Of a stretch of DNA of 64,000 bases, positions 330 to 58,800 are shown piece by piece. The stretch lies in the NCBI GenBank assembly GCA_030062745.1, contig CP099849.1:15375307-15439306 (forward strand). Reading direction: 5' to 3'. The stretch is from Capitulum mitella. Its lineage: Eukaryota > Arthropoda > Thecostraca > Pollicipedomorpha > Pollicipedidae. The stretch's first letter is position 1. Every line of letters starts with the position of its first letter. A program made the position numbers and the translations under genes. The notes beneath the pieces were generated by a model. That model was not told where the DNA came from. It did not search any database and saw nothing but the letters and a program-made list of their open reading frames with translations.

Positions 330-1420
330 TTTTGGTCATGTATGTGTCTGGCCAAGAACCGTCAGAAGAGCTGGTGCAGCTGGTGCAGTTCTTTGCTGGA
401 CATTGCTCATTACGTCGTTCAAGAAAAAAAAAACCGGAACTGGAGGTTAGATAGCCAAGACTTCTTTTCCAACGTCCATCTCTTGAGTCAGATCCAGCCG
501 GGACTAAGAGAAATGGTGACGTCAGTGCTGCACCGGAATATTACTTGTGCTACTTGACCCATCACAAGGCGCTACCGCTCGCCACGCTCACTGCTGACAA
601 CGAAGCTATGCGAGAAAGAGCAGTGAAAACTGTGTGCAAGTGCCGGGCAGCCATAACCTTACGGCAGCACAGCTTTCACCTGTTCAAGCTGCCCGTCATC
701 AACATGAACGTTGAGAGTTACACGGAACTTTATGACTTCGTGGCAGAGCCAGTTTTCCAGCTTCCATTCACCCCATTCCTCCGTTAACCCGGCACCGCCT
801 GGCGTGTTTTTATACCCACTTCTGTCACCCACAATGCAAATCAGTTCAACTGTCATCATACTTATGACCTATCATGACCTGCAATATTCACGTGCCACGG
901 TTTTATATCGTTTTGGAGACTGTGTCTCATGTAAATCCAAATAATCCATGGATTATATTCGCGAATATTATAAAAAAAAACAAGCATGCTCACGCCACCT
1001 CCCGAAAGAATACATGCATGCAAGGGTTCACGTATGACGTCATATCCCCATGACCTGAGCTAGCATGGAAATGGTTTTAATACAAAATATGTGAAATCGG
1101 TTGATATACAGATGTTGAAAATTTGGTTGGTCTGGCTCTTATGGTTCAGGAGTTATTCACGAAAAAACCGAGACGGTGCCCTATCTGGAACTCCCCCACG
1201 CGGTGCCGGGTTAAAACAGATATTGTTATTCAGCAACTGAGCAACTGATGCTGACACGGGGCAGCTGATCACCACACCGTCAGACATCCCAGAGTATCCC
1301 GTTCACACTCAGGCTGCGGAGCGAAATCATCGAAGGAGGTGCCAAAGACTGTTACATTCACGCAAAACTCGAGCATCGCCGCCTTTTGCCACAGCTATTC
1401 CGCAAGGTATGGTTCCGATT
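330..1420 (+). pseudogene. Decayed transposon-like gene (HTQ-x-x-ER family), 3' part, split by a TTAA element
   Basis: No intact frame remains. Bases 545-787 translate to a stretch with ALPLATLTADNEAMRERAV, a KCR motif and a following FKLPVINMN block ending in an AEPVFQLPFTP segment. This order resembles the C-terminal part of an uncharacterised protein family that recurs in invertebrate genomes (pattern: LT-D-R-x-x-R-E, then KxR, then FKVPxLNF, then TEPP). After the 788-1210 insertion, bases 1295-1324 encode YPVHTQAAER, matching the P-x-HTQAVER motif that family carries further downstream. The frame is shifted and contains stops, and the A-rich run near 421 probably marks decay. Such genes usually behave as repeats and may derive from transposons. 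The family match is from memory of motif order, not from a search. The left limit is approximate. Confidence 0.45.
788..1210. mobile_element. TTAA-bounded MITE (CCCGGCACCGC terminal repeats)
   Basis: A 423-bp non-coding element lies between direct TTAA copies at 784-787 and 1211-1214. The left end reads CCCGGCACCGCCTGGCG and the reverse complement of the right end reads CCCGGCACCGCGTGGGG, so the ends form an inverted repeat of about 11-15 bases. TTAA duplication with ends starting CCC is the hallmark of the piggyBac superfamily. Inside are two TGACCT half-sites at 865-870 and 875-880, a direct repeat with 4-bp spacing. The same terminal repeat bounds 37955-38975. It sits inside the decayed gene at 330-1420. 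Confidence 0.82.
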
Positions 1421-2877
1421 CATGTGAAGTGGTTCTGCGATGAGTGAAGAAGAGCTTCTCGCATCCATCGATGAAATAAGATTGCTGTTATTCAGCTCAA
1501 ATCACTCTGACCTTCCGTGATACGTTTGCAAAAGCAGCATATGCGTAAATCGCACAAAGCAACTGTTACAACCATCCTGCATCAACGGCTTTGGTGCCGA
1601 TGGCTCTGTTTTCATTTGCCGATTAAAAAAAAAACATTCCAGACTGTTTACCAAGGAAAGTCGGTTCACCTTTCGTTTAAAAGTGGAAAGTCGTTTATGA
1701 TTCTGCGGTAAGGTGACAGCACGGAATAACACGAGACTAAATACAAAATGCCCTTGAACTCATATTTCCTTTCACCTACCGAGCACTTTGAATGTGGGTT
1801 CTGGTGGACAGAAGGTTTCTCCATTATAATTTCACCATTCCCGAACGATTTTCGGAAAAACTTCGATGATGATACACTGTAATGTAATGTATAGGGGGCA
1901 ACTGCCTCGTAGACGGGCCAGGTCTGTTAGGGACGCCGAAATCGTCAGAGGCGCTTCGTCTGTACGGGGAATGCCTGGCTTGTAAGAGTCGTCGAGTCCA
2001 CGGGGAGAGCTGGAGTTGACATGGGGGAAGGGAGGCGAGTTGTTGGCCTCTAGGTAAAAAAGGTCCTTATCTCCGCAAAAAAGACGGATTACGGCCAGTC
2101 TTTGGACTCAGTTTTAAGACATGCTCTTTTTTAGTTTTCTTAACAGTCAAGTTTGTTGTGTTATGGAGGTGCCCACATCACACGCGAAAAAGTGGGGGCG
2201 GGGGGGGGGGGCAGGAGCGCGGAAACATCCCAAAAACGGGGAAGGGATGTGAAAGACAATTTTCCTAAAGGCTCTAATACTGAACTTCCAAAAAGTGGGG
2301 CACTACCCCGCGCCCATTCCTACGCCTATGATACAGGCATGTCGCACCGTCCCCGTCCCCCCCCCCCGTCCCAACACCCAGCTCCCGTCTGTCCCGAGAA
2401 CCGATAGACGGGTACTTGCTTCAGTTATGATTATTCTCTTACGGCAAACGCATAGGCTGTCGCACAAGGAGCCCCACTGAAATCGGACCCTTCCCCCCGG
2501 TTAAACACTTAGCCCCTTCCCTCCCAGCTAGGAAAACCTGGCTTCGTCGCTGGTTGCAAAGCAAACACAATGCATGCTGCCGAACAAAGAGAGCTCCTGA
2601 AGTCGGAGACACCCTCTCCGAAGATCTGACCACCTTGGCCCTTAGGAAAGTGCCAGGTGCCTCTCGGGGCCTGTTACCTGGCAGTCCTAATGTTCTAGTT
2701 AAGCGGGTCGGTTCGTGGCTTTAGGGTCCCGCAGTCGAGCCCCTGTCTCGCTTCTCTTGACACAGCTTAGGAGCTGGACGGCACTTACTAATGCGTAGGT
2801 TCAGAAGCATTTTTCAGTGCGTCTGCTACAGCAAACACTCATGGCTTATTTTAAATACCATTAGTGAACGTCATGTA
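1421..2877. other. Intergenic; only a small diverged duplication seen
   Basis: No supported gene. A GGGGGC-rich stretch at 2192-2212 and C-runs near 2358 look like remnants of the G-rich repeats seen elsewhere. A diverged local duplication is visible: 2446-2484 and 2562-2611 share the order GCAAAC, GC-rich centre, ACAA(A)GAG, CTGAA(A/G)TCGGA. Nothing else was recognised. Confidence 0.4.
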
Positions 2878-55800: not shown

Positions 55801-58800
55801 TGGGACAACTTTGTATAGATGTCAACAACGACCAGTTTTATCAAACAAATGTAGAAATATGCTAAATCGAAGTTTGTAAACATGCGTGATCCCGGAACAG
55901 ACTAAAATCACCAAATATTGAATGAATCACAGGAGATTCTTTGATGGTGGAAATGAGACACGTATGTGGCCATTTTAAATGGCTGTATAGATAATTACGG
56001 GAATAAATGCATACTGCCATTTCACGGCCAAAATCCGACCCTGATCAGGCCACTGACCTTGTCAAGGTCAAGCTAGGCCAGTGATCTAGAATTATGTTTC
56101 TCAACATGTTTACTAGCTATGGCTGTTTTCTTTTTCGCCCAATCCGAGTGAGAACACTGTAAAAACCACTAAATAAACTGCATTTTGCTTCATGGGCGGA
56201 AATCTACCCGATTATGAATGGTGGCCGTCAATATAACATGTGGGAATGGTTTTAATGAGGAACAATGATGATCCTGACGAAGTGCTCCGAACCACCGTCA
56301 GCAGACGACGGGGAACGTCTGCTGTCCGACGAACTGAGTCAACGCCGAGCGTAGTAACGTCCCGAGAGCAGTGAAGTAGCAAAATGCAAGGGGCTATCTA
56401 AACAGCATTACCATTAGATTGTAGGTCGGGGTCGCCGGTTGTTTCACGTTAACACGCGCAGTGAAAAGGGGGCACAAAAGCCCCCCCCCCCTCTGGTCTC
56501 GGGCATGGACCAGAACGGAAAGAGCTAGAGATATGAAATTTTATGGATAGGACAGAGCCATAACGATTCACATTGTGCGCAATTTTTATGACTCTAAGCC
56601 GATATCTTTAACTCAAACGGGGTCCAAAAAGTCAACGTTGGACACTTTCTCGGCCCGTACAGGCCATTCCTTACGACTTTTCGAACGAAACGGGAAAAGG
56701 ATGTTTGTTTGAACGTTAAAACGTGGAATACGACAATTTGCATTCATTTGGCGTCTTGAGTGAGGATTTTGGGTCAAGGTCACGTCAGGTTACTGACCCA
56801 CAGCGTTATTTTTTCGTCTTTTGCAGACCAGCTTTCGAACAAAACGGGGGATAGCTTGAGTGTGAATAAGAGCACTACACGCATCTTTTGGCGTATTTTC
56901 AGTGAGAATAGCCAACGTCGGCACATTTGATTACCTCTAGCGTTTGCTAATCTCCGCAAGGTCCAAAAGAAATGAAGCGATGTCATTGACCTTGGATGAA
57001 GTTTTTACCCGAAGTAAGTTTTATGTCAACTATTTGCGCTTAAGTTGTTTCATTATAATGTACCCAGTTGCACGGTTTGATCGCTGTAAAACGTAAAAAT
57101 TATATATATATACATATACATGTGCGTATCAGTGTGCTTAACGTGTTTTATTGGTCTTTAACGTCTCTGAATGCATATTTCATACAAATCGACGTCCTGA
57201 AAAGCAAAGTTGGACCAGGCCCCAAATAGTTACCCTTGACCTTTGATGACCTTGACCTGCACTGACCCTGGCATACATAAGCGTATCAATGTGCGCACAC
57301 ATGTTTTTATTAGGATCTTTGAGTGCATATTTCATACAAGTCGAGATGCCGGGAAGCAAATCTGGACCAGGTCACAAAATATTTGACCTTGACCTTTGAC
57401 GATCTTGAACCTCATTAGACCTGGTAAATGTAAGCGTATTAGTGTGCGCACATGTGTTTATTAGGGTCTGTGAATGCATATTTCATACAAACCGGCATGT
57501 TGCAAAGTAAATCTATTATAATCAGGTCACAAGCTGGTTGACCTTGACCTTTAACAACCTTGACCGTAACTGTCCCCGGCTTAAGTCTCGGTACATCCGC
57601 CACTTAAAATGTTTCGAACTTCAAAAATTTCTAGCCCAATTTCAGTTTTTCTGCGCAAGAAAAGGTGGGGGCACAAAAGTGCCCGCTCCTTCCAGTGCGC
57701 GTGTTAACAGTCATCGGGGCCGCAGACCGACAGGATGCGTGTGCGCAGTTGCGAGTGCGATTGGTATTGTTTGTATGCGTGTTTTCACAATGAGGATCCG
57801 GTCGGCTGCACAAGATGAGGATTGCCCTAGACATTCAGAGAAGCCCAGGCTTGCGTCCACCAGTTCAGTTTCGAAACTCTCGTTGATAGGCGATCGTATT
57901 AGAGAACCCCAGACTGGACAGGTCCCAACGAAGAGGCAGGTACTGCAGAATCTTTATGGGAACCGTAAAATGGAAAATAAAGTAGGCGGGGTAGGAGCAT
58001 CGTAACCACTCACACCACTGCCGGACACGTATTGATGGTGAATAGGCGATCAGTTCCCTCAAGGCGTAAATATTACGTCATTAATTAGATCAACCACTTG
58101 GACAAAGAATACAAGGGAATAAAAACGACGCAAAGCATCAACCAAAACTGGCCGAAAACAAGCGGCAGAAGTTCGTGGAACGACTGGACACACTGACATT
58201 GCCCGAGGATGTGCGAAGGAACTGATCCGTCGCGATACAGCCCCGATCTGAGGGTGCCAAGAAGGAGGACATCATTTTCCGGGAGAAAGGCGCAGAGAGA
58301 TGTACATGGACGGTGAGGATGTTCATTATCTCCGTAAAAAGAATGCGGTGGAATCAAAAGCTGGCCGGAAGAGAACTGCTGCCAATTCAACAAAAACCAG
58401 AGCAAAAAAATCATTGATGAAATGCCAGTGGACAAATGTTCAAGTGGATCTTTAGGTGTACAGGAAGATGAAGACTAAACGCCCGAAAGGAGGTCATCAA
58501 AAAACAGTACAAGTTGACATGCCGCGAAACATCATGGGATCCAGTGATGTAAGCACCATGGCAAATCGGCTGAGTATAAGAAATTCTGCAGCCGTCGAAA
58601 TGACATCTGCGGTGTTGAAGGCAGGTGGAGCACATCTGTAGGATTTCAAAATTTCCGTGTCCATGAGAAAACGTTCCAGGAAAAAGGCGCGAGCAGGTAT
58701 TGCAAAGAAAATTAAACGAGAGTCTCAGGCGAAGAAGCCTGAACATGCCACGCTGCACTGGGACGGCAGACTACTTGGAAACGTTTCAACCGGTACGAAA

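Follow-up and report, generated by a model that had tools for sequence, protein, structure and literature searches.

Receptor sites within transposable elements are known, and the case of the Alu repeats is an established one: as reported, these carry receptor elements of the DR2 and DR4 types, that is, direct repeats (DR) of a half-site with gaps of 2 and 4 bp (PMC1785376), and sites for HNF4 also occur in them (PMC3252374). Here we describe a comparable situation in a 64,000-bp stretch of the Capitulum mitella genome (assembly GCA_030062745.1, contig CP099849.1, positions 15,375,307 to 15,439,306 of the forward strand; hereafter the window), in which several families of short TTAA-bounded transposable elements hold the half-site AGGTCA in 10-bp steps, that is, as DR4. 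The likeness to Alu is that a non-autonomous repeat spreads receptor-type direct repeats in large numbers, and in Alu some binding has been shown (PMC1785376). However, Alu is described as a single short interspersed nuclear element (SINE) family with mostly DR2 sites, attributed largely to CpG decay, whereas here phased DR4 clusters are found in several families of DNA transposons. The sequence evidence suggests that these families attract a regulatory protein of the host and have spread candidate sites for it across the genome.

SINE B1 repeats are reportedly linked to NR5A2, a binder of AGGTCA-type sites, at zygotic genome activation. There too a repeat family would be tied to such a receptor site, in the early embryo, but the site is said to be a single extended half-site, whereas here it is DR4 and the preceding base is mostly not the A of that layout. 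The coral CMITEs are families of TTAA-bounded miniature inverted-repeat transposable elements (MITEs) that, like the present families, share in their interiors what they do not share at their ends (PMC2872659). In the coral account a 75-bp interior is wholly alike in elements of about 100 bp; in contrast, only half-sites and their spacing are shared here, in elements of up to 1.3 kb. Within one open-licence literature library we found no description of DNA transposons in which phased DR4 arrays recur under two rules of spacing, and its literature on AGGTCA and piggyBac contained nothing on phased arrays by title and start of abstract. Several DNA-transposon families in one genome appear to share one host-factor layout in which spacing and motif are both constrained, and both the selection of non-autonomous elements for recruiting host regulators and the seeding of receptor-responsive networks by transposons become testable.

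Spacing of AGGTCA half-sites in the window and the genome

The window contains 96 AGGTCA half-sites on its two strands, compared with a mean of 29.4 over the 180 letter permutations of this hexamer, among which it is the commonest. Six elements that make up 6,437 of the 64,000 bp (10%) hold 45 of the 96, and all nine same-strand pairs with starts 10 bp apart lie inside them, with none outside; start spacings of 5 and 6 bp account for four pairs each. These six had been pointed out in an initial annotation of the window, and every position of AGGTCA or its complement TGACCT quoted there was correct when rechecked on the window letters. Its element coordinates also hold, but the independence of the six does not, as they represent four families (A, G, H and K).

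The same preference is seen beyond the window. In a sample of 20 stretches of 10 kb, taken at round-number places in the genome, AGGTCA has the top maximal-order Markov residual among hexamers (287 vs 178). The 381 half-site contexts of these stretches and the window collapse to 250 clusters, in which an exact spacing of 10 bp occurs 16 times, 5 bp 13 times, 18 bp 8 times, 15 and 23 bp 6 times each, and any other at most 4 times. With at least five of six letters required, a half-site stands at +10 in 29 of the 250 clusters (circular-shift mean 2.5) and at −10 in 25 (mean 2.2), and when contexts of overlapping pentamers are dropped the count at +10 is 23 of 229 vs 1.8. A scan of 254 kb for dimers matching in 10 or more of 12 letters, which left out a 55-bp satellite (L020), gave 134 with a 4-bp gap, compared with 27 to 73 for the remaining gaps from 0 to 15 and 25 to 31 for three control hexamers at gap 4; the inverted repeat with a 1-bp gap (IR1), at 32, was one among several raised inverted gaps (IR8 35, IR11 33). 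Half-sites are concentrated in stretches that are repeated within the sample (4.3 per kb vs 0.87 elsewhere), and at least 19 of 28 DR4 starts lie there.

Across 477 Mb in 16 contigs, with exact matches counted and the reversed motif as control, DR4 occurs 32,896 times vs 499 and DR3 949 times vs 153, a ratio of DR4 to DR3 of about 35. Triple DR4 occurs 6,769 times vs 123, with one family dominant among the 100 matches listed, and 18,809 DR4 are left when both outer spacer bases must be other than G. A pair of same-strand AGGTCA half-sites with a 4-bp gap, the layout of a candidate receptor site, is therefore preferred over other gaps. Spacing counts no higher than controls, which the initial annotation had named as an argument against receptor sites, were not found, and its proposal that elements disperse such sites agrees with the DR4 copy number, by which candidate sites are dispersed in tens of thousands. 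In the 62 collapsed DR4 contexts, a pyrimidine is preferred at −2 of both half-sites (0.77, 0.72) and an A before the first (0.45).

Other sources of AGGTCA were also noted. The satellite-like L020:2223-2662 has the hexamer about every 55 bp, and AGGTC pentamer tracts outside the TTAA elements (L019, L030 and G+C-rich stretches) are a separate source of AGGTCA pairs.

Element families, their shared half-sites and a second period

The elements are non-autonomous, TTAA-bounded and of the piggyBac type, and they fall into several families between which no common sequence can be seen. A, B, G, H and K were compared on both strands in 20 comparisons with 50 shuffles each. Three comparisons (A-G, B-K, G-K) beat all 50 shuffles when half-sites were kept, and none of the 20 did so when half-sites were masked; thus the visible sharing among these families is the half-sites. 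These comparisons and the contexts bear out the earlier claim that the half-site and the 4-bp gap are kept while the spacers and the rest differ between families, and the contrary outcome named with it, that all families stem from one element, did not appear, as no common element is detectable among the five once half-sites are masked.

Taken together, modest excesses of conservation within families favor selection on the element lineages. With random hexamers from the majority sequence of the same family as reference, half-site columns score 0.804 vs 0.750 in A (11 rows; reached by 5.7% of random sets), 0.861 vs 0.795 in B (7 rows; 2.4%), 0.826 vs 0.753 in G (4 rows; 2.9%) and 0.778 vs 0.599 in H (3 rows, two picked for arrays; 0.5%), with individual sites kept anywhere from poorly to well. 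The comparison of L032 with L047 gives 0.81 vs 0.69, with a slid-mask fraction of 0.036, or 0.109 counting exact DR4s only.

Family A has two forward-strand copies, at 17862..19070 (triple DR4 at 18491/18501/18511) and at 39011..40224 (TTAA ends; triple DR4 at 39643/39653/39663 and DR0 at 39357/39363). A diverged relative, A2 (about 67%), lies at 41000..42180 on the reverse strand with its half-site arrays mostly decayed; in L031, another relative at 67% that was chosen for its triple array, AGGTCA stands in 10-bp steps with changed spacers. Family G occurs as a short form at 784..1214 on the forward strand (TTAA ends, 14-bp inverted repeats matching at 13 of 14; DR4 at 865/875) and a longer one at 37951..38979 on the reverse strand (right end TTAA; DR4 at 38187/38197 and 38463/38473); both (788-1210 and 37955-38975) are shortened forms that align to the longer L016:3219-4506. 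Family H, at 30745..32040 on the forward strand, has TTAA at both ends and DR4 at 31515/31525 plus 31532, and L036, its relative by alignment, retains a triple array. Family K, also on the forward strand, at 56449..57707, has TTAA at each end, an interior with three units of 151-153 bp that are homologous to one another, and DR4 at 57237/57247 and DR0 at 57247/57253. A fifth family, B, is present as forward-strand fragments at 42691..43342 with half-sites at spacings of 23 and 28 and as an everted repeat with a 1-bp gap (ER1), a layout found three times in this family over the window and the sample loci; whole copies are in L015, L027, L017, L011 and L026. The layouts thus differ: A carries a triple DR4, the majority sequence of G has four DR4 pairs set apart from one another, and B has ER1.

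The description of the six elements as TTAA-bounded is right for most ends but fails at the left ends of 37951..38979 (TTGA) and the first A copy (TTAG), and an inverted-repeat scan found a TTAA pair in three of the six (784-1214, 39011-40224 and 56449-57707). Elements start with CCCT in A and H, CCCG in G and B and CACG in K; the rule given for piggyBac MITEs is CC[C/T]T (PMC2872659). None of the six elements contains a complete stop-to-stop frame of at least 120 aa, and they therefore have no transposase gene of their own. Their arrays are interior, at 329-660 of 1,214 bp in A and likewise away from the ends in B, G, H and K. Among ten loci selected for triple arrays, a strict scan for TTAA inverted repeats yielded a pair in one (L037, 11 of 14 letters; best control word 10) and no proven ends in L030, L032, L033, L034 and L038; single TTAACCC-type ends were seen in L029, L031 and L035. 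Just inside the TTAA ends are G+C-rich palindromes, in which a short core is flanked by G and C runs (A, 39029-39050; K, 56468-56491; B, L015 about 5395-5430), next to T-rich DNA in A and B. Nested insertions were also observed, with autonomous piggyBac elements in B and A elements (L041, L043), and a G element in an A relative and an A element in G (L016, L014).

A second period, absent from the initial annotation, is superimposed on the 10-bp steps: half-site clusters lie about 150 bp apart (130-170 bp), with a harmonic hump near 300. Deduplicated adjacent gaps, counted without L020, number 34 at 130-169 bp, 8 at 90-129 bp and 7 at 170-209 bp. Bivalve Helentron/MITE elements are likewise non-autonomous with internal repetition on a satellite scale, but as described they have tandem like units (PMC7492417), whereas the units compared here, with dinucleotide shuffles, are not recognizably alike in 33 of 36 distinct pairs at 130-170 bp (median z 0.75). 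The three pairs alike beyond z 3 are internal duplicates, two in K and one in G. No family A pair exceeds z 3 under dinucleotide shuffles; under single-base shuffles some reach z 3-6.

In a run test that counted B and G once each and left out K and L019 (a pentamer tract), 18 of 40 gaps in 14 runs were of about 150 bp vs 7.8 ± 2.4 (fraction 0.0002). Without A, B, G and H, a set that still includes kin of A (window 41520) and K (L027 9073), the count is 9 of 24 vs 4.75 (fraction 0.023). The ten loci that were taken for a single triple array outside family A are a selected set; L030 (pentamer-rich) and L031 (A kin) were dropped and four others had no run of three, and in the four with usable runs 15 of 19 gaps fit vs 3.8, or 8 of 12 vs 2.4 without L032. 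The clearest case is L032 (C1:1641700-1644100), where eight DR4-like sites (10 of 12 letters) within about 1.25 kb are centered at 910, 1064, 1226, 1368, 1528, 1683, 1979 and 2143, in steps of 140-165 bp with one double step, and where the units are not alike (36 pairs, mean z 0.08, maximum 2.2). The units of L034 are partly alike, with 4 of 21 pairs above z 3. Genome-wide, two exact DR4s stand 131-160 bp apart, start to start, in 1,184 cases (control 12), compared with 254 (control 41) at 81-110 bp and 193 (control 22) at 191-220 bp. By eye, the first 100 of the 131-160-bp matches listed comprise 40 of K, 35 of G, 4 of the L032 type and 5 of one further family, the others being single or simple repeats; given this dominance of K and G, the genome-wide count alone cannot separate selection from duplication or copy number. 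Together with the DR4 total, these pair counts make clear predictions for binding and nucleosome maps.

Candidate users of the arrays

The best reading of these observations, to which we give about an even chance, is selection at the level of the element for a dimer site of a host nuclear-receptor-type protein of the RXR/USP class; we infer which receptor it is, that it binds, how the element benefits and what the 150-bp step is for. The DR4 preference, the flank preference and an excess of IR1 amount to a resemblance to the sites of an RXR/USP-class receptor dimer. IR1, the classical ecdysone layout, occurs 3,219 times genome-wide vs 46 for its reversed control. The genome has 49 exon-level matches to the receptor DNA-binding domain PF00105, nine of them near-complete in one exon. 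Receptors such as FTZ-F1, ERR and HR38 use single extended half-site layouts; as main users they were rejected, since the collapsed contexts lack the needed A/C before AGGTCA. Judged by sequence, EcR-USP is a possible user: in the yeast assays reported, EcR-USP of one beetle acted best on DR4, and that of the fly on several layouts with IR0 best (PMC5494300).

Under selection for a receptor site, element lineages would have gained or kept candidate dimer-site arrays of roughly the form YA-AGGTCA-NNYN-AGGTCA, which, stacked in 10-bp steps, would present their half-sites on one face of the helix, with more clusters at steps of about 150 bp. Such arrays would probably be used by a dimer of host receptors in the RXR/USP class, either EcR-USP or another RXR partner. 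Its binding might open the chromatin of the element or place the element near active transcription at a stage when jumps are heritable, and transposase from autonomous relatives would act on the element ends. By analogy with receptor-linked SINEs, the benefit would fall in the germline or early embryo. A length of 150 bp is close to that of the nucleosome core and lies below the repeat length typical of animals, and a nucleosome link of this step is conjecture. We consider it doubtful, though possible, that unrelated families converged on a two-tier design, in which 10-bp-phased DR4 beads 130-170 bp apart would let a host dimer, perhaps a pioneer factor, bind one bead per nucleosome and keep the element open or looped for transposition; if so, the host genome would hold more than 30,000 ready-made receptor sites.

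Several observations weigh against selection for a receptor site. ER1 (TGACCTnAGGTCA; 14,445 sites genome-wide vs 41) and spacing 5 (overlapping AGGTCAGGTCA), which is also common, are non-classical receptor layouts, and DR5 is far over its control (8,361 vs 148), in part owing to a spacing-11 pair in family A. Among the 62 DR4 contexts are those of the ten loci selected on their triple arrays; the excesses of conservation are individually small, and one of the 11 A rows and two of the three H rows were picked for arrays. The families may also have a very old common origin. One form of such an origin is a single ancient array-bearing element or module, of which the families would be descendants or recombinants and the array the last recognizable part. 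The TTAA type common to the families and the resemblance among the G+C-rich palindromes that A, B and K have inside their ends fit this idea, as do the coral TTAA MITEs, described as having a common interior and different ends (PMC2872659). We nevertheless regard it as unlikely, given that with the half-sites masked no family comparison exceeds its shuffles and that the array layouts of A, G and B are unlike; moreover, retention of half-sites alone from an ancient module would itself require selection.

The arrays might instead be binding sites of the elements' own piggyBac-type transposases, like subterminal repeats elsewhere. Phased short repeats are a usual form of a transposase site, TTAA-type ends are found in all resolved families, and the genome has at least 118 matches to the piggyBac transposase PF13843; no partner element was recognized that has the ends of A, B, G, H or K. 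Seven autonomous elements with TTAA and matching ends were found in two families (L039-L042; L043, L045 and L046), the matched domain being stop-free in five of the seven, and their roughly 19.7 kb contain nine isolated half-sites and zero DR4; L044, for which no ends were found, has no half-site in 4.8 kb. Since the ends of these seven are unlike those of A, B, G, H and K, the test of transposase use is an indirect one. Even so, autonomous elements without DR4 and arrays that are interior make a general transposase requirement unlikely, and we place the chance of this explanation somewhat below that of an ancient module. The candidate of subterminal transposase-binding repeats was rejected on the same two observations, and the initial suggestion that a receptor-like protein serves the elements' own transposition is weakened to the extent that this indirect test allows. 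A mutational origin without any binding protein, through AGGTC pentamer expansion, 10-bp units and internal duplication at about 150 bp, would account for the frequent AGGTCAGGTCA and pentamer tracts, for the duplicate units of K and one G pair, for the partly alike units of L034 and for the 75 of the first 100 listed 131-160-bp strings that belong to K or G. But the enrichment at +10 survives the exclusion of pentamers and many thousands of DR4 have neither outer spacer base G, two results that rule out pentamer tracts as the whole cause; most pairs at 130-170 bp, and all those of L032, are not recognizably alike, and duplication leaves the same hexamer in unrelated families unexplained. Of the explanations weighed here we find this mutational one the least probable.

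Other features of the window

In an Rfam search of the window no family reached its gathering score. By eye, frames at 34887-35330 and 35583-35960 on the forward strand resemble glyceraldehyde-3-phosphate dehydrogenase in two pieces, and a 270-aa frame at 14834-15646 on the reverse strand resembles an immunoglobulin-domain protein. Fragments at 22016-25100, also on the reverse strand and also judged by eye, are like retroelement integrase, reverse transcriptase and gag-type sequence.

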